This document shows, in pieces, positions 765 to 58,716 of a stretch of 64,000 nt of DNA. Each line of letters begins with the position of its first letter. Within the stretch, counting starts at the first letter, position 1. The notes under the pieces were generated by a model. The model was not told the DNA's origin, made no database searches, and worked only from the letters and a program-made list of their open reading frames with translations. Position numbers and translations under genes: made by a program. Source of the DNA: Phoenix dactylifera (lineage: Eukaryota; Streptophyta; Magnoliopsida; Arecales; Arecaceae); the NCBI RefSeq assembly GCF_009389715.1, contig NC_052397.1, positions 15,944,129 to 16,008,128 of the forward strand. The letters run 5' to 3'.

Positions 765-1621
765 TCAAGTGCAGGAGACGGAGGAGACGTAGAGCGGGTA
801 GGGGTAGGTGTTGGCGTACTGGAAAGAGAGGGACTGGCCGGGGCCGAGCACGGCGCCGTCGTTGACCAGGCAGTTATCGTAGCCGATCCGGCGGAACACC
901 CGGGGATTGATAAGACGTGCCGAGCTGAACCACCCGCAGCTCACATGGATGTCCGCCACCGCGCACCCCGTCGAGCACACGTTCAGTACCTGCACCGTGT
1001 ACGTCGGTATCCCGTTCGGCAGCGGCGCCGTCGCCCCCTGGTACACCACCACGTCGTCCTTCGAGCACGACTCCACCCCCATCCTCTCCCCCACTATAAC
1101 ATCGTTTTTAACGCCGTCAGTCGCCGGTTCAACTTAGAAACACACATGCAATGAAGCCGATCAGGGCCGTTTGATCTTACCGATGCGGAAGAGCTTCCGA
1201 GTGCTGCCGGCGCTCCGATTCTTCTCGGGAACAAGGGCCATGGCTCCTCCCGCGTCGTTTCCATCCACTGCAGGTTAGCATGGTTAATTAGTAATTGCCC
1301 CTCGCTTTGATGGAATTTTCCGAACGACCACCATTCGAAGAGTCGACTACGAATTTAAGACCTTCAGATAGCTAGATTCTAGGGATAGTAGATAGATTCT
1401 GTTATAATTTGAATTTGGACCGTCTGATTGGTGATCCAGGTTATCTAAATTGGCATCTACGAGAAGGTTCGATGATCCAAACGGTCGGATGGAAAGGGTT
1501 TAAGGTTAAGGGACGGAATGAAAGTCGACGACTTACCGAAGTAGAGAATGGAGAAGAGCAAAACCAAGCTCATGATGGCTGAAAGCAAGCGGACTTCAGG
1601 GAACCGCGGAAACCAGCCCAT
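765..1621 (-). CDS. TPD1-like secreted signalling protein (TAPETUM DETERMINANT1 family), 3 exons
   Basis: Exons on the minus strand are 1537-1621, 1181-1267 and 765-1093, joining in frame to 166 residues. The last exon carries the diagnostic domain: the PNGIPTYTVQ block, CGWFSSARLINP, DNCLVNDG and SLSFQYANTYPYPL, with six cysteines starting at about residue 67. Residues 11-28 form a hydrophobic segment that can act as signal peptide or anchor. In this family (Arabidopsis TPD1, rice TDL1A/MIL2) the secreted protein binds the EMS1/MSP1 receptor kinase and specifies anther tapetum cells. Donors are GTAAG and acceptors TGCAG and TATAG. An upstream acceptor (TCTAAG, 1133-1135) is also in frame and would add 13 residues, but it leaves only a 48-nt intron. 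The 87-nt intron chosen has a CTGAC branch-site match 27 nt before its end. Which paralogue this is cannot be told by eye. Confidence 0.9.
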
Positions 1622-4700: not shown

Positions 4701-6233
4701 ATTGGAGCAAACGAAATCTTTTCTCGATGATAAGAATTATGATGTAATTTGCCAGAACTTGTTTGCATTGAATGAATTTTTTTCTCTTTGTTCACCACCA
4801 TCTCACTACACTCCATCCTTTATTTATAGGAGAGTGCTTACCTAGTCAGTGTTCTTTTAGATTTTCTTCGTTGTATGTATGATGGCTAGTGCCAAAAGAA
4901 CAGCTGGTGATCAGAGTCCAACAGCTTAGATCACTGTAATTTTTTTAGCTTTTGGCATAATGTGAACTGGCTGCAGGTCAAGAGTTGCAGAGCTAAATAA
5001 CCAAAAAAAAGTAATGATGTATCTTAATTGAAAGAACTGCTTAGAGTTATTGCTGCAAAGGATCAATCCATTGTCTTACAGAGTCAAGGCACAGAGATGC
5101 CAATTGGATGGGGAGTGGTTGGCATGATTGGAAGCAAAGTGATGCAAATCTGTGCCCCACGCTTCTGAAGACCTTTATGATTCCTCTCTCTCTTTCTCTC
5201 TCTCTATATATTTATATACTTCATATATATTTATGTAGTATAGTCTGTGGACCCAGATTTACATGAGTCCAGAGTCCAGACTCCATAGTATAGTCTCTTT
5301 TATACCAGTCTTGGGTGGGGTAGAAGCTTTATCATCATGATTTCTCTTTAAATTCTCCAAACGAGATTAGGAGACAAGGATGAATTTGAATCCCACCAAA
5401 TTCATTTGATTTAATTGGAGATATATATTCATAGCAGCTTGGTTGGGTGGTGGAAGGGGGAAGACAGACGTAAGAAGTTGTTTCTAGTTCTTGGTGTCTT
5501 CTTATAATTTGAATAGATGAGGAAAGATAGGGAGTGCAAGAGGATATCTAAGAAAATAAGATGAGGACATGGAACTGAGTCATCTTCTATAGTGCAAGAT
5601 GGGGAGAGGCATGACGTGCGAGGAACGAGTCAACATGAAGTCTTTGGAAGGATGAGGAGGTGGACCCCAACAAGGCGAGAGACTGGGTCCATTAACGCAG
5701 ACAAGCCCAAGTTTGAAGTCTGGGTCGCGGTCTTTCATGGAAAAGCAGCGTCCATGAACACATGGGGAAGAATCCGGATGATCTTGACGGACGCCGCCCC
5801 ATGTTTTGGAACATGCCCGACAACTACTTTGACCAAAAGTTTAGAGAGACTTATCATATTTTGTAGGACCTTGCGAGATATGTTTAGTCCCACATCAACT
5901 ATATATTAATTAAATTTTAATTTTTATATTTTTGGCTAGATTTTTTTTGGATAAGATTTTTGATTATGACAAGTGGGGGGAATCCGATCTATGACTCACA
6001 TAGATTAGAAACAACTTCTACTCCCTTCAATTATACAGGACTTTTGTAGGCCCTCAGCAGCTTCCATCTCTCATGTATTGATACCAAAAATCAGGTTTGG
6101 GCCCCTTCATTGAGGAAATACTCGTCAACAAGAGGTTAGCTTATAATTCCGAAAGCTGTTCAGAGTCCAACAACTGATCTATCCCCATACTGAAGGTCAT
6201 GGTCGGACATTTCCCACCAACCACGAGTTTAGA
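1784..6233. other. Intergenic region, no gene recognised
   Basis: About 4.4 kb between two divergently oriented genes. It holds a G9-(GA)10 tract at 2722-2750, an AT-rich 5' half after 3040, a MITE-like motif (GGCCGGTTTGG, near 3876) and T homopolymers near 4020. A TTAGTCCCACATCA box near 5886 resembles the start of the TRIM LTRs elsewhere in this window. The frame at 5592-5909 has no recognisable domain and is not called. Confidence 0.4.
2722..2750. repeat. G9 tract followed by (GA)10 microsatellite
   Basis: Direct reading: a run of nine G followed by ten GA units. Such tracts are often found in plant promoter-proximal DNA; no function can be assigned here. Confidence 0.9.
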
Positions 6234-6239
6234 TATATA
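6234..6239 (+). promoter_or_regulatory. TATA box of the DUF4408/DUF761 gene
   Basis: TATATA stands 74 nt before the ATG at 6308. It lies only 3 nt upstream of an earlier in-frame ATG at 6242. Transcription would begin about 30 nt after the TATA box, so the 6242 ATG would not be in the mRNA; this decides the start. Confidence 0.5.
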
Positions 6240-6307
6240 GGATGTCCCTCCTCCCCTGCAATCATCTTATTCACTTCTCTTCGCAATACAAAGAGATTGA
6301 GAAGGAG

Positions 6308-6940
6308 ATGGGGACCAAAGCAAGGGAGCCAAACCCATGGAAGAGAGCCCTCCGAGTCCTCCTCCTGCTCTCCATCGTCCTGCTCTCTTATTACTCTTCT
6401 TGCCTCCACTCCATCAACCTCTCCTCCACCGCAACTCTTCTCAACAACCTCGACCACTTCATCAATAGGAAGGCCATTTTCCTCTTTTTCAATGCCATTC
6501 TATTATTCCTGGTCAAAGACTCCGGCTTGCTCAGTCCTTGCAGCGAGCCGGTTAACAAACTTGGCGATGAATTCCTTGTGAGGAAAGACCATCAGCAGCC
6601 GAAGGTTGAAGCTCACGTGGAGACTGAAGCAGATGTTTCCATGGCAACAGTGGAGAGTCGTAAGTCTTTAGATTTAGTCATGATAGAAGGAAGAGAAGAT
6701 GAAGAGGGAATCGCTGCTATGGAGATAGAAGCGCGTGCTGTGGAGAAGGCTATAGAGGATAGTGGCAGGTCTTTGGAGTTGGCTGTGATTGGAGGAGGAG
6801 ATGATGAAGGAAAGGAACTTGTGGGTGTGGATGAAATGAAGAACGTAGGAATTGATGAACTGAATAGAAAGATAGAGGAATTTATTGAGAGTGTGAAGAG
6901 AGAAAGGAGGATGGAGGCTCTGCAGCTAGTTAGGGTGTAA
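6308..6940 (+). CDS. Single-exon DUF4408/DUF761-type membrane protein
   Basis: 210 residues without introns. Residues 14-36 and about 55-72 are hydrophobic helices, as in the N-terminal DUF4408 module. The middle is acidic and low in complexity (many Glu, Asp, Gly). The C-terminus has the DUF761 signature, a helix of the form DELNRKIEEFIESVKRERR near residues 180-200. Plant proteins with this pairing are small, often stress- or wound-responsive, and biochemically uncharacterised. The start at 6308 is preferred over the in-frame ATG at 6242 because the TATA box at 6234-6239 would place the latter upstream of transcription; the sequence before 6308 is also unlike the family. Function is not known; the family call rests on pattern recognition only. 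Confidence 0.75.
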   Translation: MGTKAREPNPWKRALRVLLLLSIVLLSYYSSCLHSINLSSTATLLNNLDHFINRKAIFLFFNAILLFLVKDSGLLSPCSEPVNKLGDEFLVRKDHQQPKVEAHVETEADVSMATVESRKSLDLVMIEGREDEEGIAAMEIEARAVEKAIEDSGRSLELAVIGGGDDEGKELVGVDEMKNVGIDELNRKIEEFIESVKRERRMEALQLVRV

Positions 6941-11979: not shown

Positions 11980-13740
11980 AAATCCACTATCACACTATTT
12001 CACTTCAAATTCAAACCAATAATTCATCAACCCAAGATTTGTCATCTCAAGCTCATTAATCATAAAAGACTTAAATTCATCAATTTTTTTGTTATTCCGA
12101 ATATCATTCAAATCATCCACATGTAAACAAATAATCAAAATTTTTGTGCCTTCAAACTGATGTAGAGTGGGGACTCACTTTTACCACGTTGAAATCCGTT
12201 ATGAATAAAGTCTGCATCAATCCTATCATACCATGTGCTTGATGCTTGCTTTAGCTTATAAAGTGCTTTCTATCTTTTTTTAAGAGGAAAAGTGAATATA
12301 AATAAGAAAACCAAAGATTTTGAAGTGCTTACCTTTTTTTCCATCTTGTCCATGCTTCATACATGGGAATATCTTCTAAAGATGATGTGAGGCACATGTT
12401 CAAAAAATATAATCTGCTGTAGATGCTGCCTCGGCCCAAAATTTGTTATGAAGTCCTTTAGCTTTCAGTATATTTTTTTTGTCATCTTCACTGAACTCCT
12501 TGTTTTGCTCTCTACTACATCATTCTATTGAGATGAATAGCTGGTTGTCAATTGTCAGCATGTACTATTAGCTTCACAAAATTCTTCAAACTCATTAGAT
12601 ACAAATTCTCCTCTTTTATTGATTAAAAGAGTTTTAATCACATAGAAACTTTCATTCTCTACTAAGATTTTTAAATTTTCAAAACACATAAAATACTTTA
12701 GATTTTCTTCTGAAAAAATAAGCCCAAGTCATCCAACTGCAATCATCCACAAATAAAGCAAGTGAACCTTGAGCCCTCCAATTAATTTTCTTTAGAAAAG
12801 CATTCAATTAATGATGCTTCCTTAGCATACATCCATCACAAATCATATCATCATGTTAGATTAAAGGAAATCCTTCTACCATATCTTTTTGATGCAAGAG
12901 ATAATTGAGCCCTTTAAAACTAACATATCCACATATAAAGTGTCATAACTAATCATCTTCCAAAAATACTTTCATCACAATAAATGATGGGAAAGCATTA
13001 TTTTTAACCACAGAAACTTTAAGCAAAAGATGCTTTCTACTTATTTCTCATAAATAAGACACTTTGAATGTTCAAAAATAAGATAGCATCCTTCACTCAA
13101 AAATTGGCCTGCACTAGACAATTTTGAATCCAATCTAGGAACATAAAGCACATTATGAATTTCGTTAATATTAGAGATTTTTACAACAACTATGTCATTT
13201 TCTATATATCTCTCTCTCAAAGCCATCACCTATCTTCACAGAGCTCTTCACAGACTTGTGTAGATCAACAAATAGGTCTGATTCCCTATCATATGGTTGC
13301 CATAACCACTTTTTTCGTACCAAACACTGTTAGAATTTTCTTTCATAGCACTATAAGCAAAAGGTAAATTTTCAGATTTTTCTAACTCTTGTTTTCTTTC
13401 AATCAATTTAGCATACTGTTATTAACAAAACTTTTTAATATAGCCAAATCTCTAGCAATAATGGTACTGAATATTTTTTTTGGATTGAGCTCGATCATTA
13501 CCTTTCTAATTTCTTTGATTTTGACCATCTGACCCCTTCATCCCTCTTACTGGAGCCATCAGAATTGTCTCCACCTCTCCGTTCACAGCCACGACCATAT
13601 CTTCGGCCTTCGGAGTTTTGTTTGGACTGCTTATCTACATAACTTTTTTCTTTAAATTTGATAGATTCAATTTAGAACTATGGAAAGACTAGCTTAGGAA
13701 GAAATGAACAAAAGTTGAACTCTGGCTCTCATATTGCTAC
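11980..13740 (-). mobile_element. Decayed Ty1-Copia retrotransposon, minus strand
   Basis: Reading the minus strand from high to low coordinates gives broken pieces of a Copia polyprotein in the expected order. These are an Arg/Gly-rich gag tail (about 13540-13680), the protease/pre-integrase stretch with VLYVPRLDSKL and SAGQFLSEGCY (13041-13229), the integrase C-terminal part around a degraded NGVVERKNRT motif and NKFWAEA (about 12480-12800), and reverse transcriptase with YKLKQA and a HVDDL catalytic box (about 12050-12270). Stops and frameshifts interrupt every part. A degraded primer-binding site (CTCTCATATTGC, compare the complement of an initiator-Met site) lies near 13725. It is dead and much older than the intact element at 25614-30478. 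Confidence 0.75.
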
Positions 13741-14149
13741 ATAAAACATACTAACAGTGGAACCTTTCTAGAACTAAAATAATAAAATATTATAAAATAG
13801 GTAACTATTTATAGATGTTATCTTGGACTCTAATACTTGACACTATCTAGTTTTATAATTGGAACTCGAACTCAAGAAAGGCTTGGCAGCATGCTTGGAA
13901 TCAAAATCTACTACATCAGTGTTATGTTCAATGGAATCGAGGAAATTAGTTAATTGGGGGTTGAAAGGGAAGGGCCGAGGCCACCCAGAATCAAACCCCA
14001 ATCTTTTACTGAGAGGGTAAGAGATGTTACCATCCGAACTAGGGTTCGGACCTTATCAGAGGTTTTGGCTTCCAGAAAAGAACACCATCTTATATACTAT
14101 GGCCTTTCTTTTCCTTTCTGTTTCTTCTTCCAAAAAAATATACACTGTC

Positions 14150-16900
14150 ATGAATAATGATGTAATGAAAAACAACTCCCACAGATCATATGAGCAAATT
14201 CTTTTGACTAAGTAGTAGTCATTCTATAACGAGTAATGACATAACCAAGTACATTTCCTACTATTTCGCCATACATGCCTTAAATAAACAAAGTTAGATT
14301 CAAGTAATCATGATTTAAGATATTTTTGTTGGAGTCATACCTTATTTGAGCATAGCTCTTTTATTGTACCAGCCTCATCGAGTTGCAAGAGTTAGATAAT
14401 TTATAGTTGAATCATCACGTCTAAAAGAAAATTCTTATACTTTCTCGAAAGACATTGCAAAGAGACCAACATGAGATTCTAAGCAATCATGTTTAAGAAT
14501 TTTCTAGATCAGTTGTCTCTCATTTGAGCATTTCTCTTTTATCAAACCAACATCATGACTATGCTGCAAGTATTAGAGTAGTGACAACTGAATCATCACA
14601 TGCTTAAGGAAAAACAACTGTTGCTATTTTGCCATACATGTCTTAAAAAACATAGTTAGATTCTAAGTAGTCAAGTTTACTATTTTTTTTTATAAAGAGT
14701 CTTACCTCATTTAAGCATTGCTTTTTTTTTTTTTTGCTGCTATAACGGATGACTCATATACTTCTAGTATGAATACATCCAAAAAAAGTCAAAAAGTAAC
14801 AAGTCTCGGAGTGCTCTAGGCGGCTCCCTCTCACCAACTCAGAGAGCTCCCCTCGAGTGGTCAACTAAGCATTGCTTTTCTGTTGTACTAGCCTTGCCAT
14901 GTTGCATGCTCTAGAAGCAAAAAATAAGTCATCAGATGCCTAAAAAAAAGCTACTCTTACCTTCTCACATTCCTTGCCTCAAAAACAAAAATTAGATTCA
15001 ACATAATCACATTCAAGAATACTCTGGATGAGTTGTACCTTATCTGAACATTTCTCTTTTGTCATGCTAGCCTGATAATTTTGAGAGTATTAGAGATATG
15101 GCTACCAAGAATCAGCACGTCTAGAAAACAACTCCTATAACCTTGCTCTAAATGCCTAGAAAATTAAAATTAGATTCTGAGTAATCACATTTAAGATTAT
15201 GTTTGTAAGAGTTGTACCTAATTATTTGCGCAGCACCAGTCTGACTATGTTGTGAATGCTTGAGAAGTGATAGTTATATCATCACATGTCTGAAAAACAA
15301 ATCTTAGTATCTCAGAATACATAAAATATTAGCTTTAGAACCTAAGCAATCATATTAAGAGTTTTCTAAGAGTCATACCTTATTTGAGCATTCCTCTTCT
15401 ATCGTACCGGCCCGATGATGTTGCAAGCATCAGAGAAGTGAATGAAATCATCATGTGCCTGAAAACAACACCTACTATCTCCCTATATATGCTTGAAAAA
15501 CCAAAGTTAGCGGTTAAGTAACATCGCATTCGAGATTTTTTTTCCAAAAAAAACTTAAGTATTGCTCCTCTTTCATGCTAGCTTGATTTTGCTATGAGTG
15601 TTGGAACAGTGATGATCGAATCATCGCATGCTCAAAAATAACTCCTAATATCTCACTTTATATGCCTCAAAAACCCAAATTAGTTTCTAAGTAATCATAT
15701 TCAAGATTTTTCTGGAAGAGCCACAGCTTATTCGAGCATGGTTATTCTGCCATACCAACCTACTTGAGTATTGTTATTCTACTATGCCAACATGTTGTGA
15801 AAATTAGAGATGTGAAAGCATCATTACATGTCTCAAAAAGAAATCTTGGTATCTCACCACACATAAAATATGAATTCTATATAGAACCTACATAATCACA
15901 TTAAAACTTTTCTAAGAGATATATATCTTAGATTGCTCTTTGCAAGTGTTACAAAAGTGATAATGGAATCATCATATACCTAAAAGCAATCCCTACTATC
16001 TTACCATAAATGCCTGAAAAACCAAAGTTAGAGCTTAACTAATCATTTTTAAGATTTTCTTAGGAGACTTGTACCTTTTCGGAGCATTGACCCTCTTCAT
16101 ACTACCTGATTGTTGCAAGTGTTAGAGAAGTGACAATCGAATCATCACATGCTTGCGGAACAACTTCTAATATTGCACTATACATGCCTCAAAAACTAAA
16201 ATTACATTCTAAGCAATCATGTTTAAGATTTTTCTACAAGAACCATGCTTTATTTAATTGAGCATTGCTACTCTGTCATACCAACCTGTTGTGGATACTA
16301 GAGATGTGACAACCACCATCCGATGTCCAGATAACAACTCTCTGTATCTCACTAGATACAAAAATATTAACTTTATAGCCTGAGTAATCAGATTAAGATT
16401 TTTCTTCTTTTTTTGGAGATAGAGAGGGATTCATCCCTTATTTAAGCATTGCTCTTTTCTAATACCAACCTAACAATCTCTAGAGAAGTGACACTGGAAT
16501 CATCATATGCCTTAAAAAACCAACTCCTACTATCTTACCATACATGCCTGAAAAACCAAAGTTAGAGCTTCAGCAATCATATTGAGAATTTTCTCTTGGG
16601 AGAAAGTTGTACCTGACTAGTTACTGGAACATTGCTTCTCTCCTGTACAAAAATAATTGTGCTGGCTCTGCTGCAAGTGTTAGAGAGGTGACAATCAAAT
16701 CATCACATGCTTAAAAACAACTCCAAATATCTCACCATGCATACCTCAAAAACCAAAACTAAATTCTAAGCAATCTTATTTAAGATTTTGTAGGAAAATC
16801 ATCTTATTTGAGTATTATTATTCTATGATGCCAACCTGTTGTCCCTATTAGATAGGTCACAATTGAATCATCACATTTGGAACATCCTATAATCACATCA
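14150..16900. repeat. Satellite-like tandem array, about 175-bp monomers with trimeric higher-order structure
   Basis: A recurring box of the form GAATCATCACATG occurs near 14410, 14591, 14929, 15110, 15278, 15446, 15619, 15819, 15967, 16139, 16316, 16498, 16698 and 16866. Spacings are 148-200 bp, once a LINE insertion is removed from the third interval. Between boxes each unit has the same order of motifs: a CTCCTACTATCTCACC part, an AAAACCAAAGTTAGA part, TAAGCAATCAT, TTAAGATTTT, a TTATTTGAGCATTGCT part and TGTTGCAAGTGTTAGAGAAGTGAC. From 15278 onward the units fall into three kinds that repeat in order, giving a second period of about 500-560 bp. There is no coding potential. Monomer length is close to one nucleosome. 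Confidence 0.85.
14726..14865 (-). mobile_element. 5'-truncated LINE 3' end inserted in the satellite array
   Basis: The insert is flanked by a perfect 14-bp direct repeat, TAAGCATTGCTTTT, at 14712-14725 and 14866-14879, a target-site duplication. It begins with a T run on the plus strand, that is, a poly(A) tail on the minus strand. Its body (AACGGATGACTCATA, then CATCCAAAAAAAGTC, then GAGTGCTCTAGGCGGCT) resembles the 3' end of the LINE relic at 52607-52740, so both come from one family. Removing insert and duplication restores normal satellite spacing (338 to 184 bp). Confidence 0.8.
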
Positions 16901-17284
16901 CACCAGTACTGCTCTACTACTGTAGCTGCACCTATGAAAAGTTTATGCCCTGAAGACTGGATCTCTTTTACCAAAAAAAAAAAAAAAGAAGAAAGAGAGA
17001 GATAAGTTCTCAAAAGACCAATTTGCCAAAATATCCTTGTATTCCGATGTCTGAGATCTACAACATTTTTTTTCTTAAATCTTTTCTGAATAACCCCTGT
17101 GACCCTGTCTATTCCGTACAGAAAATACATCCAAAAGGCCACAGATTATTTTAACTACCCCGGAAGACACACCCAGGGACGCCTGTCGGATCCGGTGCTC
17201 CGCCGATGATATCTAATCCAATCCCGCCACGGAGACGGGCCGGGTCACATTAAAACGCTCAGGCGGTGCAGCCGGAACAAGTTT
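16901..17284. other. Non-coding DNA downstream of the proline-rich gene
   Basis: Contains an A15 run near 16973-16987 and GC-rich DNA after 17150, probably the 3' UTR of the minus-strand gene. A minus frame at 16804-17142 starts inside the satellite edge and has no recognised domain. Confidence 0.4.
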
Positions 17285-17767
17285 CTACAGGGATTCCGGG
17301 TGCTTCGCCGCCTCATCGGACGGCGGAGGCGGCATCTCCTTCACCGGAGGCGGCAGTGGCGGCGTCTCCTTCACCGGAGGAGGCGGAGGCGTCTCCTTCA
17401 TCGGGGGCTGCGGCGGCGCAATCTCCTCCACCGGCATCAGTGGCGGCGGCCTTTGGTCGAGCAGAAGCGGCGGCGGCGCAAGCTCCTCCGGCATCAGCAG
17501 CGGCAGCTCCTCGTGGCCGGCGGCCACGAAGTCCAGCATGTCGCGGCCTACCACGCCGGCGGCGGCTTCTGGCGGCTTCTGCGAGTAGCGGGCTATGATC
17601 GGAACGGTCCAGAGGACTAGGGCAGTGGACATCAGTAGGGGAGCGAAAAAGCCAAGGATGGTTAGGAAACTGGGGAGGATATGCAGTATGCCGACGGCGG
17701 CGGCGACGCCCAGGGCGGCGGTGAGGAGGTGGTACCGCCACTCATAAAGGGTTTCCGGGATGGCCAT
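17285..17767 (-). CDS. Small membrane protein with two hydrophobic helices and a proline-rich tail
   Basis: 160 residues in one exon, GC-rich and free of introns. Residues 11-32 and 34-57 are hydrophobic and probably form a membrane hairpin. From about residue 90 to the end the protein is a Pro-rich tail with repeated PPP..VKE(T/M) modules (three to four copies), ending in an acidic/polar terminus. A TA-rich TATA region lies about 75-85 nt upstream. Hairpin-plus-proline tails of this type occur in poorly studied plant proteins; I do not recognise a named family and assign no function. The high-GC overlapping frames on the plus strand are shadows of this gene. Confidence 0.65.
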   Translation of the reverse strand: MAIPETLYEWRYHLLTAALGVAAAVGILHILPSFLTILGFFAPLLMSTALVLWTVPIIARYSQKPPEAAAGVVGRDMLDFVAAGHEELPLLMPEELAPPPLLLDQRPPPLMPVEEIAPPQPPMKETPPPPPVKETPPLPPPVKEMPPPPSDEAAKHPESL

Positions 17768-17840
17768 TGGAGAAAAAGCCTCTTTTTTCAGCTAGCTCAC
17801 AAACCTAGGTTTAGGTTTGATGAAATGAAAGCGATAGGAG

Positions 17841-20056: not shown

Positions 20057-22474
20057 GTATGACAGCCTTTTCCAAACAAAAAGTCGAATTTTGACGTTAA
20101 AAAAAGTTTTTTTTTTTTTTTTTGTGCATGGAATATTTTGATTGATTCTTCTTATATTTTATCTTAAATCCGCGGTCTGATAGCTTCGCGGGGTAGCCCT
20201 AGATCTGAATTGGTCCGGTTCTTGATTCCTCGTGGTTTTGTGGAAAAATGTGTTTCCCGTGCTTGTCTTCTGCTTGAGAAATCTTGCTGTTTCTCTTCTT
20301 CTTTCAATCAAATTTCTTCCTTTTGATTATATCTCTTCATCATGTAGTGTTGAGGTGCTTCTAGATCGGAATTATATGCCATCTTAATATGAAATAGATG
20401 AGTTTATGGAATGGGGTTCGTAGAAAGTTCAAGTTATACCAATGCAACATTGCAATTTTCGTTCTCGTAGGTACAAAACAATTTCAAACCATGAAATTCT
20501 GCTGAATGGAACTTTATTGCAGTTCATCGAGGGGTGAAGGATTGAATGGTACCCTTCTGGATCAGTTTTCATATCTGAAATTATCTGGATACACATGCAA
20601 ATTTTAGCATCCAACTAAATCTGTATTCATAGTTGGATCCATCAAAGAAAATAGGATAGGGACATTAGACAGATACCCAATATCTATGTAAACTTCCAAA
20701 TCCATTTTCAACCGTATGTGTTCTCATGCAACTCTTCTAAACTCCCAAATGAAAGAGGTTATAGCATCAACATATTTTCAAGTTAATTTTCTTTCCATAC
20801 GGGACATCTTTAATTTGGTGGATTGCATCCTTGACAGTCAACTTTTTAACTCAAAATGTGTATTTAAGCAAAATTATCGGGATCACTACAAGAGTCATGT
20901 AATTAAATAGATGCTGCTTTTTATTGGAAAGCTTGTATACTTTTTTCGGAAATAAGAAAACATAAAGTGAAACAATATTTTACCTGTAAAGTTCAACTAC
21001 CCAATTTATATCCGTATTGTTTATTTCTGGTTCATGTCTCCATCTGTTTAAAATAAATATAGACACAAATTACAGCATTCATTTAATATAGGTATCCGAA
21101 TTCATATCAAATGAAAAATGAGAATGTGGATTCTAATCTGTTTTAAGGCTAATTCCTCTACCCCTTGTTAAATGATGAATGCAAAATTTATCTAAATTCA
21201 AAGAGTGGTGAATTAAATAGTTGGCTACTCTGATCTGGAAGCAGGAAAATGACGGGAGGGTTCAGAGTGCTGCATCTTGTCAGACCATTTTTGGTGATTT
21301 TGCCCGAGGTACAGAATGCTGATCGGAGAATTCCATTTCGGGAGAAAGTGATCTACACTGTAATATCTCTTTTCATCTTTCTGGTCTGCAGTCAGCTGCC
21401 ACTTTATGGCATTCACTCAACAACAGGTGCCGACCCCTTCTACTGGATGCGTGTTATCCTTGCATCGAATAGGGGGACAGTTATGGAGCTGGGAATTACT
21501 CCTATTGTTACTTCAGGATTGGTGATGCAACTGTTGACAGGATCAAAGATTATTGAAGTTGACAACAGCGTAAGAGAGGATCGTGTTCTACTGTAAGTAC
21601 TGCTTGCTCAAACTGGAACACACACTTAATGATGCTGGGTTAACATCATTTGAGGAAGATTATTCACTATCCTCGAAAACTTTTTACTTGTATAAAAGAT
21701 GATGCCTTTGAAGAAAATTATTTACTATCCTGTGTAACTTTTTTCTTGTGTGAAGGTTGATGTCTTTCCATTTATTTTACATGCTTTTGCAATGAGGGAT
21801 GAATGTTGCTTGCATAGTATGTTTTCAATATTGCGGTATTCTGCTATCATGATCCTTTTCCCTTATGACAAAAAAACTGATAACTAATTTTTAATTTTTC
21901 TGCTCATGCTATGTAGACTGTAATGTGAGCTATATAGAGACATCCTGCATTTATGTACAAGGACGTATAATATGGAGTGTTAACACATGGACAACTTAAG
22001 TAATATGGCAAGCTGAAAGCTACACAAATACCAACTTTTCCTAGTATACCTATATAAACATGAGATGTGCTGCTCTTCAATTATGAAAATGTCATTGAAT
22101 CTCATATTAGTATCCGGATTCATTTTTGAATAGTTGATGGTCATATGAGATGGCTTGATAAATACTTTCTTATCATGTTATTGTTTTTATGGAAGTTTAT
22201 CAACATATATGAATAAAATTATGTTTATGCAAGCTTCAGGTTCAAAGAATATTTGGTGTATAGTTGAGGAATCATGATTTGACCTTATGGAAATCAAGTA
22301 TTTGTATTCGATGTTTTACTTCCAGTCCTTTACATGTGTTGCTGAAGAGGTGGTAAAACAACTCTATTGTAGAAGAATATGTTATTAAGATTATGTATTG
22401 ACAAGTTAGTGTGGATTATTGCATCTTATATTCAGATCTTTGAGGAAGGACGGGCACAAGGCTTATACAAAGGC

Positions 22475-25300: not shown

Positions 25301-25343
25301 ATCTGTGTGTGTTCATATACATATATAAAAACATTTTAGACGG

Positions 25344-25586
25344 TGTGAGGCCCAATAGTCCCACATCGGAAAGACTCGTTCCAGAGCTTGGGCATATGAG
25401 GCGGGTGTCTCCTAATCCTGCAGACGCGTTTTGGGTGGAAAACAAAACCGGGGAGGGGTGAAGGACGCTTGTGTGAAGCCCCAGAACCGGACAATATCTA
25501 GCAGGGGAGCCCCGTGTTCCCCCCTCATGTGGCCCCCACGTGGGCACTGGGTGCCTCACGTGCCTCGCAGAGGCGGGGGCGTGACA
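25344..25586 (+). mobile_element. TRIM-like solo LTR with attached primer-binding site
   Basis: The 243-bp unit starts TGTGAGGCCCAATAGTCCC and ends GGCGTGACA, the TG...CA borders of an LTR. It contains the TAGTCCCACATCGG box near its start and a GGACAATAT box towards its end, both shared with the TRIM at 57759-58716. Directly behind it, at 25589-25602, stands TGGTATCAGAGCCA, the initiator-Met tRNA primer-binding site. After the primer-binding site the element stops and the Copia element begins. No internal region or second LTR follows. Confidence 0.65.
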
Positions 25587-25613
25587 TTTGGTATCAGAGC
25601 CAGGTTATTAAAC

Positions 25614-26002
25614 TTATGGTTATTAAACTTGTTTTTTAATATTAGTAACTTATGGTTTTATTTTGTAATTGCATATTAGTATGGTGAGGAGTTACATGTC
25701 TTTTGGGTTTTAGTCATGTGGGAGTTACATGTCTTTTGAGTTTTTAGTCATGTGGGAGTTACATGGAGTTATAAGGGATTTATTTAGAGAAAGTTATTTG
25801 AGATTTATTTGGGGTTATGAATGGTGTAATGACCAATTCAATTAGGAAGGTTAAAAGACAATCTAATGATGCCTATAAATATCCATGTACTCTAGTTGTT
25901 TTAAAAATAAGTGGAATACAAGTTATTCATGTGTGCCTAAAATCCTCTCCACTTTTCTTCCATAGAATAATTTGTGAGTGTGAATCCTCTTGATTTCCAA
26001 CA
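25614..26002 (+). repeat. 5' LTR of the Copia element
   Basis: Ends in TTCCAACA like the 3' LTR. A TATAAATA promoter-like box lies near 25875. Its first bases (TTATGG...AAACTTG) differ from those of the 3' LTR (TGTTGG...AAAGTTG) and instead resemble the 15 bp just before them, so the left border is abnormal. Confidence 0.85.
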
Positions 26003-26005
26003 AAT

Positions 26006-26019
26006 TGGTATCAGAGCCA
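26006..26019 (+). other. Primer-binding site of the Copia element
   Basis: TGGTATCAGAGCCA starts four bases after the 5' LTR. It is complementary to the 3' end of plant initiator-methionine tRNA, the usual primer of Copia elements. Confidence 0.9.
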
Positions 26020-26040
26020 AGACTTTTCTTGTGAGAAAGA

Positions 26041-28473
26041 GTGATGGCAAATGGAATGCTTCCGTTTCTTATGCCGCGGTTCACCAAGGATAACTATGAA
26101 AATTGGTGTATCCGTATGAAGGCAATCTTGGGATCTCAAGATTTGTGGGAGATCGTTGACAAAGGCTACACGGAATCGGAGAGTGAAGATTCCTTGACTC
26201 CAGCTCAAAAGGAGTCCTTACAAGCCACAAGAAAGAAGGATCGGAAGGCCATCATGATCATCCATCAATGTTTGGATGATGGCATGCTACAACGAGTTGC
26301 TAATGCAACTTCTTCGAAGCAAACTTGGGAGATTCTCCAAAACTCCTATCAAGGAGTTGACAAAGTCAAGAAGATTCGTCTTCAATCTTTGCGTGGTGAA
26401 TTTGAAGCCTTACATATGAAAGAATCCGAATCAATCTCGGATTACTCTTCAAGGGTGTTGACCGTCGTAAATCAACTAAGGAGGTACGGCGAAAATGTGA
26501 GTGATACAAGGGTTATTGAAAAAATCCTTCGTTCACTGGATCCCAAGTTCAATTTTATTGTTGTAGCCATTGAAGAGTCCAAAGATCTAGACTCCATGAC
26601 AATCGATCAACTCATGGGGTCACTACAAGCTCATGAAGAGAAGGTTGTCAAGAAGCAAGAGACTTTAGAGCAAATGTTACAAACAAAAGTCTCTTTGAAA
26701 GAAAAAGAAGATCGTAGTTGGAAAGGCGAAAGAGGTCGTGGACGTGGAAATGGACGTGGTAGAGGAAGAGGTGGTTGTGGATCATCCAACAAAGAAGAAA
26801 AGAAGCAAGAATGGTATCAATCAAGAGGACGTGGAAGAGGAAACAATTCGAGATCAAATGGAGGGAGGTATGATAAATCTCGAATTCGTTGCTATAATTG
26901 TCAAAAATATGGTCATTTTGCTTCGGAGTGTAGAAGTTCTTCTCAAAATATCGAAGAAGAAGCTAACTATGCTGAAAATGAAGAGACGGAGCAAACTTTG
27001 TTGTTGGCATGCAAAGGAGAAGAAAATGGAGATCATGATTTATGGTATCTTGACAATGCGGCTAGCAACCACATGTGCGGTGACAAAAGCAAATTTGTGG
27101 AGTTGGATGAAACTGCAAGTGGTAATGTGATTTTTGGAGATTCTTCCAAAGTATCGATCAAGGGGAAAGGTACAATTTTGATTCGCTTGAAAAATGGTGA
27201 TCATCAATTTATTGCTAATGTTTTCTATGTCCCAAGCATAAAAAATAATATTTTGAGCTTAGGACAACTCTTAGAGAAAGGCTATGATATTCAAATGAAA
27301 GATCTTAGTCTTTCGATAAGAGATCAAAAGGGAAGTTTGGTGGCCAAAGTTAAAATGACAAGAAACCGCATGTTTTTGCTCAACCTTCAAACCGATGTTG
27401 CTAAATGCTTGAAAGCTTGTGTTGAAGATCCAAATTGGCTTTGGCACTTGAGGCTTGGGCACTTGAATTTTGATGGGCTAGAATTATTGGCCAAGAAGGA
27501 TATGGTGAATGGGTTGCCCTTTATTGACCACCCAAATCAACTTTGTGAAGGATGTCTCTTTGGCAAGCAATCAAGAAAAAGCTTTCCAAAAGAAGCCAGC
27601 ACAAGAGCAAGGGAACCACTACAACTTGTTCATTCAGATGTTTGTGGTCCATTCAATCCACCATCTTTTGGTAAGAACAAGTACTTTCTTTTATTTATTG
27701 ATGACTTTAGCCGGAAGACTTGGGTGTATTTTCTTAAAGAAAAATCGGAGGTGTTTGAAGCATTTAAAAAATTCAAGGCACTTGTTGAGAAACAAAGTGG
27801 TTTTGATATAAAGGCTATACGATCCGATAGAGGAGGTGAGTTCACATCAAATGCTTTCAAAAATTTTTGTGAAGAAAATGGAATTCACCAACCTTTAACG
27901 GTTCCAAGATCCCCGCAACAAAATGGGGTTGCGGAGAGAAAAAATAGAACCATCCTTAATATGGTTCGGAGTATGTTAAAAAGCAAGAATATGCCTAAAG
28001 ATTTTTGGGCCGAAGCCGTTAATTGTGCAGTGTACTTATCCAACCGGTGTCCTACTAAAAGTGTGCCAAATCAAACACCACAAGAAGCATGGAGTGGAAG
28101 AAGACCAAGTGTCTATCATTTGCGTGTTTTTGGAAGCATAGCCTATGCACATGTGCCGGATGAAAAGCGCTCCAAGCTAGATGTCAAGAGTGAAAAATTG
28201 GTCTTCATCGGTTATGATGCAAGATCCAAGGGCTACAAGTTGTACAATCCAAGAAGTCACAAGATCATCACTAGTAGAGATGTTGAATTTGATGAAGCAA
28301 GTTCATGGAATTGGAATTCTCCAAAAGAAGAGTATGACTTTTTTCCTTTCTTTGAAGAGGCGGAGCCCCCTTCTCCACCTTCAACACCTCCATCATCTGC
28401 TCAAGTGCAATCATCTCCATCATCAAGTGAGGCAAGCTCAAGTGAAGGACCAAGAGGCACAAGGAGTCTTTAA
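26041..28473 (+). CDS. Copia gag-protease-integrase polyprotein (up to an in-frame stop)
   Basis: 810 residues. In order they show a UBN2-type gag domain (about 10-200) and an Arg/Gly-rich tail with a CCHC zinc knuckle (C284 to C297, CX2CX4HX4C). An aspartic protease follows with D338 in a DNAAS context. The integrase has an HHCC zinc domain (H469, H473, C502, C505) and catalytic D533, D596 and E632, with the canonical 35-residue D-E spacing. The frame ends at TAA 28471-28473 just after RSL, at the junction before reverse transcriptase. The following pol frame is in the same phase, so the two were one polyprotein. Elements of this kind make virus-like particles in the cytoplasm and integrate cDNA in the nucleus. 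Activity of this copy is doubtful because of the stop. Confidence 0.9.
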
Positions 28474-28599
28474 GACATATATGATGCCACGGATGAGGTA
28501 ACGGAAAGATTAAGTGATTTAACACTTTTTTGTCTTTTTGCCGGTAGTGAACCTCTAAGCTTTGAAGAAGCAACTCAAGACAAGAAGTGGAGAGATGCT

Positions 28600-30102
28600 A
28601 TGAATGAAGAAATCAAAGCCATAGAGAAGAATGGAACTTGGGAGCTTACTACTCTTCCGGAAGGGCAAAAGGCAATCGGAGTTAAATGGGTGTACAAGGC
28701 AAAGAAGAATTCAAGAGGAGAAGTCGAGAGGCACAAGGCAAGACTTGTTGTCAAGAGATACAACCAAAGGCCTGGGATCGACTATGATGAGGTATTTGCA
28801 CCCGTTGCTCGTTTGGAAACTATTAGATTAATTATTTCTTTGGCGGCACAAAATAATTGGAGAATCCATCAAATGGATGTGAAGTCCGCTTTTTTGAATG
28901 GTCTTCTTGAAGAAGAGGTTTATGTGAAACAACCTTTGGGATATATTGTGAAAGGGCAAGAAGACAAAGTTTTGAAATTAAAAAAAGCCTTGTATGGCTT
29001 GAAGCAAGCACCAAGAGCTTGGAATACCAAAATTGACAAGTATTTCCAAGACAACAAGTGCACCAAATGTCCTTATGAGCATGCCCTTTACACAAAGGTC
29101 AATGATAATGGAGATATATTTGTGGTTTGCTTGTATGTAGATGACTTGATTTTTACCGGCAACAATTCTATTATGTTTGAAGAATTCAAGCAAGCTATGT
29201 CTCAAGAGTTTGAGATGACGGACATTGGCCTTATGGCTTACTACCTTGGCATTGAAGTGAAGCAAATGGAAGATGGAATGTTCATCTCTCAAGAAGGTTA
29301 TGCTAAAGAAGTTCTCAAAAAGTTCAAGATGGATGATAGCAATCCGGTGAGCACCCCTGTGGAATGTGGAGTCAAATTATCAAGATATGAAGATGGAGAA
29401 AAGGTAGATCCTACATTCTTCAAAAGTCTTGTTGGAAGTTTAAGATATTTAACTTGCACAAGGCTGGATATTCTATTTGGGGTTGGACTTGTTAGTCGGT
29501 ATATGGAAGCTCCTACTTCATCCCATTTGAAGGTGGCCAAGAGAATTCTCCGCTACATCAAAGGTACCCTTAATTATGGCCTATTCTATTCATTTGTTGA
29601 TAACTTCACACTTGTTGGATATAGTGATAGTGATTGGGCCGGAGATGTGGATGAAAGAAAAAGTACGACGGGATATGTTTTCTTTATGGGAAGTGCGGCT
29701 TTTACATGGTCTTCAAAAAAGCAACCTATTGTGACACTTTCTACTTGTGAAGCGGAGTATGTTGCCATCTCAAGTTGTGTTTGTCAAGCTATTTGGCTAA
29801 GGTATTTGTTGAAGGAGCTTCATATGTTACAAGAAGAACCAACGGAGATTTTTGTGGACAACAAATCAGCAATAGCATTAGCCAAGAATCCGGTGTTTCA
29901 TGAGCGAAGCAAGCATATCGATACAAAGTATCATTTCGTTAGAGAATGTATGGCTAAGAAGGAAGTGAAGCTCAAGTACATGAAGTCTCAAGATCAAATT
30001 GCCGATATTTTCACTAAGCCCCTCAAGAGTGAAACATTTTGCAAGTTAAGGAGTTTGTTTGGAGTTGCAAAACCAAGTTTAAGGGAGGGTGTTGGTTATT
30101 AA
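28600..30102 (+). CDS. Copia reverse transcriptase-RNase H
   Basis: 500 residues from the first ATG after the stop; the open frame reaches back to 28474. It begins with the WELTTLP and GVKWVYKAK blocks, has QMDVKSAFLNG and the catalytic YVDD at residues 179-182, then the RNase H part with YSDSDWAGD, STCEAEY and DNKSAIALAKNPVFHERSKH. The terminal stop TAA at 30100-30102 lies 11 bp inside the 3' LTR. No frameshift or further stop is present. Without readthrough or internal initiation it would not be translated from the gag start. Confidence 0.9.
   Translation: MNEEIKAIEKNGTWELTTLPEGQKAIGVKWVYKAKKNSRGEVERHKARLVVKRYNQRPGIDYDEVFAPVARLETIRLIISLAAQNNWRIHQMDVKSAFLNGLLEEEVYVKQPLGYIVKGQEDKVLKLKKALYGLKQAPRAWNTKIDKYFQDNKCTKCPYEHALYTKVNDNGDIFVVCLYVDDLIFTGNNSIMFEEFKQAMSQEFEMTDIGLMAYYLGIEVKQMEDGMFISQEGYAKEVLKKFKMDDSNPVSTPVECGVKLSRYEDGEKVDPTFFKSLVGSLRYLTCTRLDILFGVGLVSRYMEAPTSSHLKVAKRILRYIKGTLNYGLFYSFVDNFTLVGYSDSDWAGDVDERKSTTGYVFFMGSAAFTWSSKKQPIVTLSTCEAEYVAISSCVCQAIWLRYLLKELHMLQEEPTEIFVDNKSAIALAKNPVFHERSKHIDTKYHFVRECMAKKEVKLKYMKSQDQIADIFTKPLKSETFCKLRSLFGVAKPSLREGVGY
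30081..30089 (+). other. Polypurine tract of the Copia element
   Basis: AAGGGAGGG directly precedes the TGTTGG start of the 3' LTR and would prime plus-strand synthesis. It overlaps the last codons of the RNase H frame. Confidence 0.85.
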
Positions 30103-30478
30103 AGTTGTTTTTTAATATTAGTAACTTATGGTTTTATTTTGTAATTGCATATTAGTATGGTGAGGAGTTACATGTCTTTTGGGTTTTAGTCATGTGGGAG
30201 TTACATGTCTTTTGAGTTTTTAGTCATGTGGGAGTTACATGGAGTTATAAGGGATTTATTTAGAGAAAGTTATTTGAGATTTATTTGGGGTTATGAATGG
30301 TGTAATGACCAATTCAATTAGGAAGGTTAAAAGACAATCTAATGATGCCTATAAATATCCATGTACTCTAGTTGTTTTAAAAATAAGTGGAATACAAGTT
30401 ATTCATGTGTGCCTAAAATCCTCTCCACTTTTCTTCCATAGAATAATTTGTGAGTGTGAATCCTCTTGATTTCCAACA
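30090..30478 (+). repeat. 3' LTR of the Copia element
   Basis: 389 bp, begins TGTTGG and ends CCAACA, thus with proper TG...CA borders and a short terminal inverted repeat (TGTTGG/CCAACA). The flank after it is AAGTGCACC. Confidence 0.9.
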
Positions 30479-39300: not shown

Positions 39301-41974
39301 TCAAGAGGATAAAAAGGCTCTGGAACGGCTCATAAAGTCTAAAGAGGCGGCTTTGATTGAAGCAAAAAATATATTGTGTATTGCTCTTGAACGGGCACTG
39401 ATAGTAGAGACTGTGCAAAACAAGAACATTGAATTGAGGAGGCAAATAGAGATATGCCAGGCATAACCATAGATGTATCCTTTTTGTTTGTGCACAAGCT
39501 GTGGGAAGTTAGATCACTAACCTTTCTGGATTCCTTTATCATGGTGCAGGAAGAAAATAAGCTTTTGGAGAAAACAAATCGTCAGAAGATTGTAGAAGTG
39601 GAAAAGCTTACTCAAACTATTCATGAACTTGAAGAATATATTCTTGCAGGCGGTGCAGCTGCTAATGCTGTGCGTGACTATCAGCGGCAGGTTGCTGAAT
39701 TAAATGTAAGGTTTTAGTTTGTCATCATCTGTTCCTCTATGATTCTTTCTCCAGAGGTTAATTTGGGGCATTAATTTATCATCATCTATTTTCTAGGAAG
39801 AGAAAAAAACTCTTGAGAGAGAGCTAGCAAGAGCTAAAGTTTCAGCAAATCGGGTGGCAACTGTGGTCGCAAATGAGTGGAAGGATGGCAATGGCAAAGT
39901 CATGCCTGTCAAGCAATGGCTGGAAGAGCGAAGATTTTTGCAGGTACTTTTGATTTGAACAAAATGCAAGAATTTTCAATGGTTTTCCTGACTGTTTGTA
40001 TTTTACCTCATTTTCATGAAATTCCAATGCTCTTGATGTTATTTGAAGGGAAAGAGGAAGCCTTTCTATTTTCCAAAAGCATAAGAAATTACTGATGCTA
40101 TTTAAACATGGTCTGAAAAGATAGCAAATAGCATAGCCATAGATCATACATGCATTATCATTTTAAATTCTGTCTGTCTTGATAAACTGATGGATAACAT
40201 TAGTTACATTTAATGTCTTGACTTAAATGGTGATGCATTTGTAGGGAGAGATGCAACGGTTGCGGGATAAGGTAGCTGTAGCAGAAAGGACTGCCAAGGC
40301 AGAAGCCCAGCTTAAGGTATGAAATCTTACAGCTCACTTTTTTGGGTAAGTCTTTTTGTACTATATTTTACATTTATTCCTTGGCTTTTCATGTGAATTT
40401 AACGTACAGGATAAACTAAATTTGAGGCTGAAGACATTGGAAGAAGGTCTAAAGCAAGCACCAAGCTTATCAGCAAAGCAAGTTGAGAACTCCAAGAAAA
40501 AAATTGGGTGCTCTTCAAATGAGGAACCAGAAAAGAGACCAACATTTCATTCAAGGGCTTCTGTTTCTGCCTCTAGACTCTCAGTTTTACAACAGCCTAA
40601 TTCCGCATCAGAAGATGTTATCACCAACAGAAATATCAAGCCAACAAATAGCTTGAAAAAGAAGTTTGCTATTGGAGAAAATCTGGTTAGAAAGAATTTC
40701 TGGGCTCCAAAAAGCAAAGTTTTTGATGATGATGGGAAGGATAATGCAGAAAGAATTGCTAACGCTAATGGTAATATAAGTGATTCTATTGAAGGAAATA
40801 CGGAGCCTTCACAAGAAGTTAAAGCCAAAGGTTGTGGTGACATTGAGTTGCAAAACAAGGGTGGTTCAGAAGATGACTGTGATGTTACTGTGCAAAGAAA
40901 AAAAGTGGTTCCACAAGAAGTTACAGTCCAAGGAGTTGGTGACATCAAGTCAAAAAATAAGCGTGGTTCAGAAGATGCCTATGAAGATATGGTATCAGGT
41001 TTTCTGTATGACAGACTGCAAAAGGAAGTCATCAACTTAAGAAAATCACATGAGGAGAAGGATCATATGTTGAGTGCTAAGGATGATGAAATCAATGTGA
41101 ACAACAAACTTTTAGATAATTAAAAGCATTCCTCAGTTTCTTTAATTCTTCCTCTATGTTTTTTGTGACATATGCCTGTATTCCTATGCAGTTGCTCCAG
41201 AAAAAAGTTGATGCAGCAGCGGCGTCTAGAGAAAAGAAGATGAGGAGAGTAGCGGTGTCTAGAGAAAAGGAAGTGTTTGTGAAGTCAGAGGAAACTAAAC
41301 CAAGAAGCAAAACCCCAATCATCTCAAGAAGGTATATACTTGTTTCGCCAATTTGCCTCTTGGAGTGTGTTAAACTAAATTTTATCATGATTTGCTTCTC
41401 CTTTTGACTAAAATGTTACCTGTACTGGAGAAAGAGTGTCTTAAGTTCCCCTCAAAGAGAGAGAGAGACTGTCTAAAGTGTTTCATAGAGGAAATATATG
41501 TAGGGTCCCTCTAAACAGTAAGTTCACATTCTGTTTTTATAAAATGGCAGAAATATCAATCTGGAATTAGGAGTAGTCAACTTCTCCTATCTTCAAGCTC
41601 TGTTTTTTTGTTTTTTTTTGCAGTTCTTAATCCTTTTTTTAAATTTAGTGTAATTGAGTCTACTATGTTTGCTTCTAAGATCAGAAATTAAGGCAACTCC
41701 TCTTCATTTCTGCATAGGGATAAGTTGGTGCTCCTTTATATTCACAGTTTTAAATTAGTCTTTTGTAAACCACACAAAGTTGCAGAAACTCTGCCCTTCA
41801 CTATTCCAGTTTCCTGAACTGTTTACTTTTATTGAATTCTTATGACTTCGTAATACTACTAAGCAACCGAACTTTACATTTAGATGTCTCTTTTCTTTCT
41901 GTAATTATGATATGGCCATTTGGTTTTACAGAGCTGTGAATCATCTGGAAGCCTTGAAAAGCTCAAGAGCTTAA
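36343..41974 (+). CDS. MAP70 family microtubule-associated protein, 11 exons
   Basis: Exons: 36343-36439, 38698-38783, 38874-38939, 39032-39202, 39290-39460, 39550-39705, 39797-39943, 40245-40316, 40410-41096, 41192-41331, 41932-41974. They join to 611 residues, within the size of MAP70-1 to -4. The protein is almost wholly coiled coil. Family blocks are DPVMIELNRLEDQLR near the N-terminus, AALFAAEAALRRVHA, LAGGAAANAVRDYQR, NRVATVVANEWKDG, VMPVKQWLEERRFLQGEM and, in exon 9, FLYDRLQKEVINLRKSHEEK. MAP70 proteins bind cortical microtubules and shape secondary walls. Oddities: the intron after exon 5 begins with GC (39461) instead of GT. Exon 9 has an in-frame 34-residue duplication. The exon 9 donor is weak (GTGAAC), and retention of that intron would end the protein nine codons later at 41121-41123. 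Intron 1 is 2.3 kb. Confidence 0.88.
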
Positions 41975-43131
41975 AATTTGCTTCAATCCTCGTCTCATCA
42001 TTCGCATCCAGTGAGGTGCTTATGTACAGCTTGGGAGAACATGATTGTTCCTAGTTAAAGAAATTTGTGTTTATAGAGGGAGGTAGGGTGCAATTATGTA
42101 AAACCTTAAACATGCATATCGTAAATTATATTCACATTATGCAATGAAAGCAAATTCAGTTTTCTATAAATAACCTTTTGAGTTGGTGTCAAAAGCATTG
42201 CAAGCTGCAAATGCTGCTGATTGCTTGGTGAAATGGTTAGGACTTTTATGTCTCGCCTGCAAAGCACTATTTTTCTTGTTTGAGATAGAATATCCTTTGT
42301 CTCCACTGACCGAGTAGATCTTCTGTATTCTGGTTAGAAGCGAACAGTTTGAATATGCCTTTCTTGATCTTGTTCAAAACTGAGACATATCTTGCTTGGG
42401 GGAATGCTAGAAGCAAACCAAGAACAAAAAAAAGAGAGAATAAAGTTTAGTATCAAATTTGTTTGATCAATGCATTTTGAAGAGTGTACTTCACAGAAGG
42501 CCGATCAAAACTGTGTCTCTTCATAGCAAAAAGTTAAAGGGTGCTGAAATCAATTAGATGCACCATTGGAGGTCAGATGCTCCTTGCTCTCACTTCTCCG
42601 TACTGCGTATTGGTGCTTCAGCACAGCTTCCTGGGGTTTTTAGTACTAATTCTTGTCAGCCTCTATAACCTCTACCAATGAATGCTTACATTTAATAGAT
42701 TTCTCTTATCGGCATCCGGAGCTATTTGCATTTCATAGTCTGAATTTATCCAACTTGAAGGTGCATGGTTTGATGTTTCAGACAAGCATAAAGTATATGA
42801 TATATGAAGATGTAAAGGTATATGGTTTTCCCAGAAAAAATGCATGTGCACTGGGATAGAGGTCGTCTCGCAGTTTTTGGCATATAGAGAATCCAACAAC
42901 AGGTGCTGCGAAAGATGGAAGGAGGATACAGCTTCTTTATCATGCATGTATGGTATGAATGGTTCCACAGGTAGGCTTCTGATTATTATACTACTATGTA
43001 ACTTGGGCATATATATAGAGCCCTCAATTTGTAAAATGTGAGCATGAGAGATATTGTGAAAGTGTTATTGTCATGATTAAATCATTAAAGATTCCTGATT
43101 CTTGTCCATATCATGTGTTTGTGAGTGTTCT

Positions 43132-43132
<1 letters not shown>

Positions 43133-43171
<39 letters not shown>
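43133..43171. repeat. Poly(C) tract, 39 nt
   Basis: Uninterrupted run of 39 C between AT-rich flanks; poly(G) on the minus strand. Confidence 0.9.
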
Positions 43172-57758: not shown

Positions 57759-58716
57759 TGTTACGGGGGTTCCCCGAATTTAGTCCCACATCGGCTAATC
57801 AGCGGGAAGGTCTGTGCCATATAATGGGGGGCTCAATCACCCTTCCCTTAGGAGGCGCCTTTTATGGGGCAAAACCGTGAGGCGCCGTGAGGAGGGCTCC
57901 GGGTACGCTCGACCCCCAAATCGGACCCAAAGCGGACAATACCTTCTGAGGGACACTCTCTCTTCCCCTGCTCGGCTGGTGTGTGGGCTCTGCTGGTGAC
58001 GGGGTGCAAATCCCGCATCAGATGGCGCTAGAAGGAGGGCCTCGGCCCTCCGCCTATCCAGTAAGGAGCCGACCCGGGCACAGGACCTCCCCGCTGGGGG
58101 GGCTGTGTTACGGGGGGTTCCCCGAATTTAGTCCCACATCGGCTAATCAGCGGGAAGGTCTGTGCCATATAATGGGGGGCTCAATCACCCTTCCCTTAGG
58201 AGGCGCCTTTTGTGGGGCAAAACCGTGAGGCGCCGTGAGGAGGGCTCCGGGTACGCTCGACCCCCAAATCGGACCCAAAGCGGACAATACCTTCTGAGGG
58301 ACACTCTCTCTTCCCCTGCTCGGCTGGTGTGTGGGCTCTGCTGGTGACGGGGTGCAAATCCCGCATCAGATGGCGCTAGAAGGAGGGCCTCGGCCCTCCG
58401 CCTATCCAGTAAGGAGCCGACTCGGGCACAGGACCTCCCCGCTGGGGGGGCTGTGTTACGGGGGGTTCCCCGAATTTAGTCCCACATCGGCTAATCAGCG
58501 GGACGGTCTGTGCCATATAATGGGGGGCTCAATCACCCTTCCCTTAGGAGGCGCCTTTTGTGGGGCAAAACCGTGAGGCGCCGTGAGGAGGGCTCCGGGT
58601 ACGCTCGACCCCCAAATCGGACCCAAAGCGGACAATACCTTCTGAGGGACACTCTCTCTTCCCCTGCTCGGCTGGTGTGTGGGCTTTGCTGGTGACGGGG
58701 TGCAAATCCCGCATCA
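57759..58716 (+). mobile_element. Tandem TRIM retrotransposon: three LTRs, two internal regions
   Basis: LTRs are 57759-58020, 58106-58368 and 58454-58716 (262, 263 and 263 bp). They are almost identical, start TGTTACGGGG and end CCCGCATCA. Between them lie two 85-bp internal regions (58021-58105, 58369-58453). Each internal region starts GATGGCGCTAGAAGGAGGG, where TGGCGCTAG can serve as primer-binding site, and ends in a G7 polypurine-like tract just before the next LTR. The whole is bordered by a 5-bp target duplication, CTTGT, at 57754-57758 and 58717-58721. There is no coding capacity. LTR, tiny internal region and no ORF define TRIM elements, which need proteins from other elements. Orientation follows from the PBS/PPT order. 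Confidence 0.93.

Follow-up and report, generated by a model that had tools for sequence, protein, structure and literature searches.

What is a run of nucleosome-length repeats, partly arranged in a trimeric order, doing between genes in the date palm genome? The window, a stretch of 64,000 bp of Phoenix dactylifera DNA (NC_052397.1, positions 15,944,129 to 16,008,128), contains such a run, and an initial annotation had described it as a satellite-like array of nucleosome-length monomers with a trimeric higher-order repeat, features that it linked to centromeric or heterochromatic satellites. The layout of the units, the distribution of the monomer in the genome, the divergence of the copies and the tests for constraint were examined to decide which parts of this description hold.

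The array comprises 14 full units and a partial unit at each end (Table 1), in agreement with the earlier count of about 14 units of roughly 175 bp. The mean unit length is 177 bp (range 148-200, unit 14590 being counted without its SINE), and the consensus spans 178 bp. Scored against a profile built from the other 13 units, each of the 14 reached 33-112 bits, while the shuffled controls (50 dinucleotide-preserving shuffles per unit) stayed at or below 4.5 bits, identifying all of them as head-to-tail units of one family. The eight top peaks of the smoothed autocorrelation, at 518, 1039, 866, 1213, 693, 173, 337 and 1255 bp, lie near multiples of 173 bp, except the one at 1255 bp, which is out of register. 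Thus, the two expected periods are recovered at 173 and 518 bp by autocorrelation but not by Tandem Repeats Finder, which returned no row for 14000-17000, as is expected because the copies are strongly diverged.

Table 1. Coordinates of the array, its parts and other features (positions in the window unless a contig is given).
Feature	Position	Strand	Remarks
TPD1_C	768-1133	-	Pfam, above curated cut-off
HlyIII	6233-6937	+	Pfam, below cut-off only
Left flank, old dispersed repeat remnants	13000-13931		Diverged copies elsewhere in the genome
Copia Pol_BBD	13044-13229	-	Pfam, below curated cut-off; in left flank
Tandem array	14152-16877		14 full units of ~177 bp, partial unit at each end
Partial first unit	14152-14230	+	79 bp; start similar to unit start by eye; outside nhmmer matches
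Five full units not in trimer order	14231-15275	+	Starts 14231, 14409, 14590, 14926, 15109
SINE in unit 14590	14713-14879	-	Poly-T on + strand; dispersed copies; 13-bp target-site duplication at 14713-14725 and 14867-14879
Trimer 1	15276-15817	+	B 15276, C 15445, A 15618 (additional partial duplication from ~15761)
Trimer 2	15818-16312	+	B 15818 (148 bp, shortened), C 15966, A 16139
Trimer 3	16313-16864	+	B 16313, C 16497, A 16697
Truncated start of next unit	16865-16877	+	
168-residue reading frame, right flank	17285-17791	-	No Pfam match at E <= 0.1
Sec61 plug	21234-21593	+	Pfam, above curated cut-off; SecY there below its cut-off
MAP70	40350-41120	+	Pfam, above curated cut-off
Inverted array copy	within C6:16870866-16873618		From genome-wide search rows

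The last nine full units fall into three kinds, B, C and A, which follow each other in this order three times from 15276, as had been claimed, and the labelling ranks first among 280 possible groupings both by multiple-alignment identity and by pairwise alignment. The resulting trimers measure 542, 495 and 552 bp. Within kinds the units share 74.4% identity on average in the multiple alignment (66.9-80.2%, 9 pairs), compared with 64.4% between kinds (56.6-70.3%, 27 pairs); the expected excess is therefore present on average, with a slight overlap of the two ranges, as the weakest within-kind pair lies inside the between-kind range. Multiple-alignment values were used because pairwise global alignment inflates identity, shuffled pairs averaging 65%. 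In the maximum-likelihood tree, the clades of A, B and C received support of 95, 99 and 80-83 (the last varying with the model). The first five full units stand outside these clades, units 14409 and 14926 leaning towards A with a support of only 66-67, and the 55 pairs that involve the first five have a mean identity of 62.6% in the multiple alignment.

The monomer was then sought in the whole assembly (773.08 Mb, 2391 contigs) and was found only at this locus and in an inverted, ~99% identical copy 0.9 Mb away. All 26 rows obtained genome-wide at E <= 10 with a 207-nt consensus probe lay at the array locus or its inverted copy, and so did 8/8 and 9/9 rows for two stretches of the array used as probes. 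With the SINE-containing probe, for which the best 40 of 688 candidates were scored, 40 of the 56 rows were dispersed SINE copies and the remaining 16 again fell at the locus pair, although SINE copies may have displaced others. Since the search passes over words of very high frequency and scores no more than its top candidates, far more diverged relatives of the monomer could be missed.

Aligned over 2773 columns, the array and its inverted copy are separated by 23 substitutions and 4 gap positions, and the same 16 profile matches occur in each. The copy belongs to a mirror image of window positions 1-63738 at about 16.824-16.888 Mb of the same contig (C6), with 95-99% identity in pieces longer than 300 bp; as the mirror covers nearly the whole window, an independent second array was rejected. 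The mirror is interrupted, among other places, at 25342-30478 (where a Copia element lies), at 43000-43164, at 50940-51161 and at a 348-bp tandem at 57759-58716. Mirror identity drops to 95.3% in pieces neighbouring the window, and a sample at 15.900 Mb still had its counterpart, while samples at 15.800, 16.100 and 16.300 Mb had none, each compared with ~30 kb around the expected place. The inverted copy is probably a haplotig left in the assembly, with the other haplotype set down in reverse orientation at a distance of 0.9 Mb. PMC6794320 gives 772.3 Mb for the BC4 date palm assembly, which combines haplotigs with 2706 primary contigs and has 49.9% of its sequence anchored and 29.2% oriented.

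A Pfam scan of ten stop-free frames of the window found gene-family matches to the left and right of the array, which places it amid genes as first described, with a length of ~2.7 kb; five of the ten frames, the 168-residue one of the right flank included, had no match at E <= 0.1. This setting, together with the confinement of every consensus-probe row to the locus pair, lends no support to the proposed centromeric or heterochromatic link, while the satellite-like organisation, the nucleosome-length monomers and the trimeric repeat are retained. The array also lacks the abundance of a classical satellite, being one locus with a near-identical inverted copy, and at the identities given above its monomers are not homogenised. 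No description of the array was recognised, by title or opening of the abstract, in literature on palm or plant satellites and higher-order arrays, a search that covered few subscription journals.

The divergence of the copies gives a rough time scale. The K80 distance averages 0.324 for units of one kind and 0.511 for units of different kinds, and rises to 0.537 in the 55 pairs with the first five units. Ages were calculated by T = K/2r with the two rates given in PMC7822834, 2.61e-9 per site per year for a palm gene and 7e-9 as used for retrotransposons. Roughly, the block would have been amplified 23 million years ago at the rate of 7e-9 or 62 million years ago at 2.61e-9, and the split of kinds A, B and C would date to 37 to 98 million years ago, estimates for which the alignment is uncertain at such divergence and which gene conversion would render falsely young. 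Homogenisation of the array has perhaps been over for tens of millions of years. Decay is also visible in unit 14590, whose 336 bp consist of a 182-bp unit and the SINE inside it.

Taken together, the locus is probably a short, single-locus, non-coding intergenic array that grew, amplified one B-C-A block, stopped turning over and is now decaying. A seed of ~177 bp may have been duplicated head to tail via slippage or unequal exchange. Later exchange in a three-unit register could then have turned one B-C-A block into three; the order of the units is plain, and such an exchange is the mechanism we infer for it. Turnover would have ceased afterwards; the sequences themselves show that the copies have decayed, via substitution, small indels and the SINE insertion.

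An alternative source for the array is a retrotransposon or other transposable element, as tandem repeats within such elements are a known origin of plant satellites, according to PMC7004042. The left flank fits this origin in being an old dispersed repeat with a weak Copia match. However, 15 of the 17 rows of that flank are copies elsewhere in the genome, yet at the sensitivity used the monomer occurs nowhere else, and hence in none of the other element copies. The right flank (16866-17800) produced four match rows, just two of them outside the locus pair and 35-40 bp long, and is otherwise unique. Derivation from a transposable element is therefore considered unlikely, and at this search sensitivity an origin inside a dispersed retroelement was rejected.

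It is also conceivable that the array was retained because it acts on a gene nearby, as a cis-regulatory, small-RNA or chromatin element. The array end lies ~400 bp from the reading frame at 17285-17791, and PMC10048060 describes short satellite arrays beside genes in Drosophila and Tribolium for which regulatory roles have been proposed. The tests for constraint point the other way. Gamma-distributed rates on the unit tree improved the log-likelihood by 0.43 (2 x delta lnL 0.86, alpha 17.3), so that no clear rate heterogeneity among sites of the units was detected by this test. Its power was moderate (8/15 simulations with a 13-mer at 0.15x rate exceeded 2.71, versus 0/15 null runs), which means that constraint weaker than that simulated could remain. 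The 13-bp GAATCATCACATG box, singled out in the initial annotation as conserved, proved unexceptional: it ranks 9th among 162 sliding windows, and 95% of 5000 column shuffles contain a window that scores at least as high. The proposal of a protein-binding box under special conservation was accordingly rejected, and conservation above the rest of the monomer, as in the CENP-B box of some centromeric satellites, was not seen for this box against the column shuffles. Nucleosome phasing by AA/TT dinucleotides (~10.2 bp) was rejected as well, since among 111 overlapping control windows as long as the array, 28 match or exceed it. RNA folding gave no signal over the 14 units (mean z 0.01 on the plus and 0.34 on the minus strand). 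Retention for a regulatory effect thus appears quite improbable. As no constraint is detectable, the array itself probably serves no function at present; it has the look of neutral DNA in decay and resembles neither a centromere nor a new kind of element. Should the rough age be correct, survival over tens of millions of years would be mildly surprising for useless DNA.

A third explanation takes the array for a relict of a formerly larger centromeric or pericentromeric satellite, left by a dead centromere or at an old breakpoint. The ~177-bp monomer, the trimer order and the out-of-order units beside the trimer block are what such a relict would offer. Primate alpha-satellite higher-order repeats likewise combine nucleosome-length monomers with a fixed order of kinds repeated blockwise, and in arrays of this type units outside the block order may adjoin it. 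Alpha-satellite monomers, according to PMC8122249, are ~70% alike and are arranged in blocks up to 97-100% alike; in contrast, unit pairs of one kind in the palm array are just 74.4% alike on average, and there are only three blocks at a single locus. Against a centromeric past also stand the gene-family matches on both sides and, at the sensitivity used, the want of any further genome copy, which make it very improbable. The specific version in which the array is the last remnant of an extinct palm satellite, kept at an ancient inactivated centromere or breakpoint and lost elsewhere in the genome, is hardly credible either.

Further parallels are the short euchromatic arrays of the Drosophila 1.688 and Tribolium satellites (PMC10048060), which also consist of a few tandem monomers near genes; these are scattered members of satellite families that abound in other parts of the genome, while the palm monomer was found at a single locus only. 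Among plant satellites of ~176-178 bp, PIVE-180 of pistachio, a named satellite used as a FISH probe (PMC4669136), shares the monomer length.

Splice-like motifs and a GTGATGA sequence resembling a snoRNA box C caught the eye in some units on the minus strand. Decayed exons in tandem or a cluster of RNA genes nevertheless deserve next to no credence, and both a row of tiny exons and a cluster of snoRNA-like genes were rejected, because each of the six frames over 14152-16900 contains 52-83 stops (longest open stretch 66 codons), Rfam yielded no match at E <= 1 over 13900-17100 and none at gathering scores over the window, neither a stable fold nor rate heterogeneity was detected, and the splice-like sites, compared by eye in 13 of the 14 units, are not conserved from one unit to the next.

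A clean three-unit order and nucleosome-length monomers occur here at a single gene-side locus with no sign of centromere function, and hence these two features alone do not mark centromeric satellites. If the rough age holds, the array is a record of growth followed by arrest and would lend itself to comparison among palms; in other respects it is ordinary.

Several other elements were noticed in the window. A short SINE-like stretch at 13930-14060 adjoins the left end of the array, and its motifs are, as we presume by eye, tRNA-promoter-like. Copia-like frames lie within 25617-30478, an element with 386-bp terminal repeats 99.7% alike, and the stretch 25342-30478 is missing from the inverted copy; this element, which lies past the Sec61 plug exon at 21234, would be a recent insertion that varies between haplotypes. 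The tandem at 57759-58716 consists of 2.8 copies of the 348-bp unit with 99% matches and is without counterpart in the inverted copy, where the alignments of its left and right flanks have 5 bp in common. The pattern is as for a recent LTR-type insertion with target-site duplication, and the element may be a TRIM.
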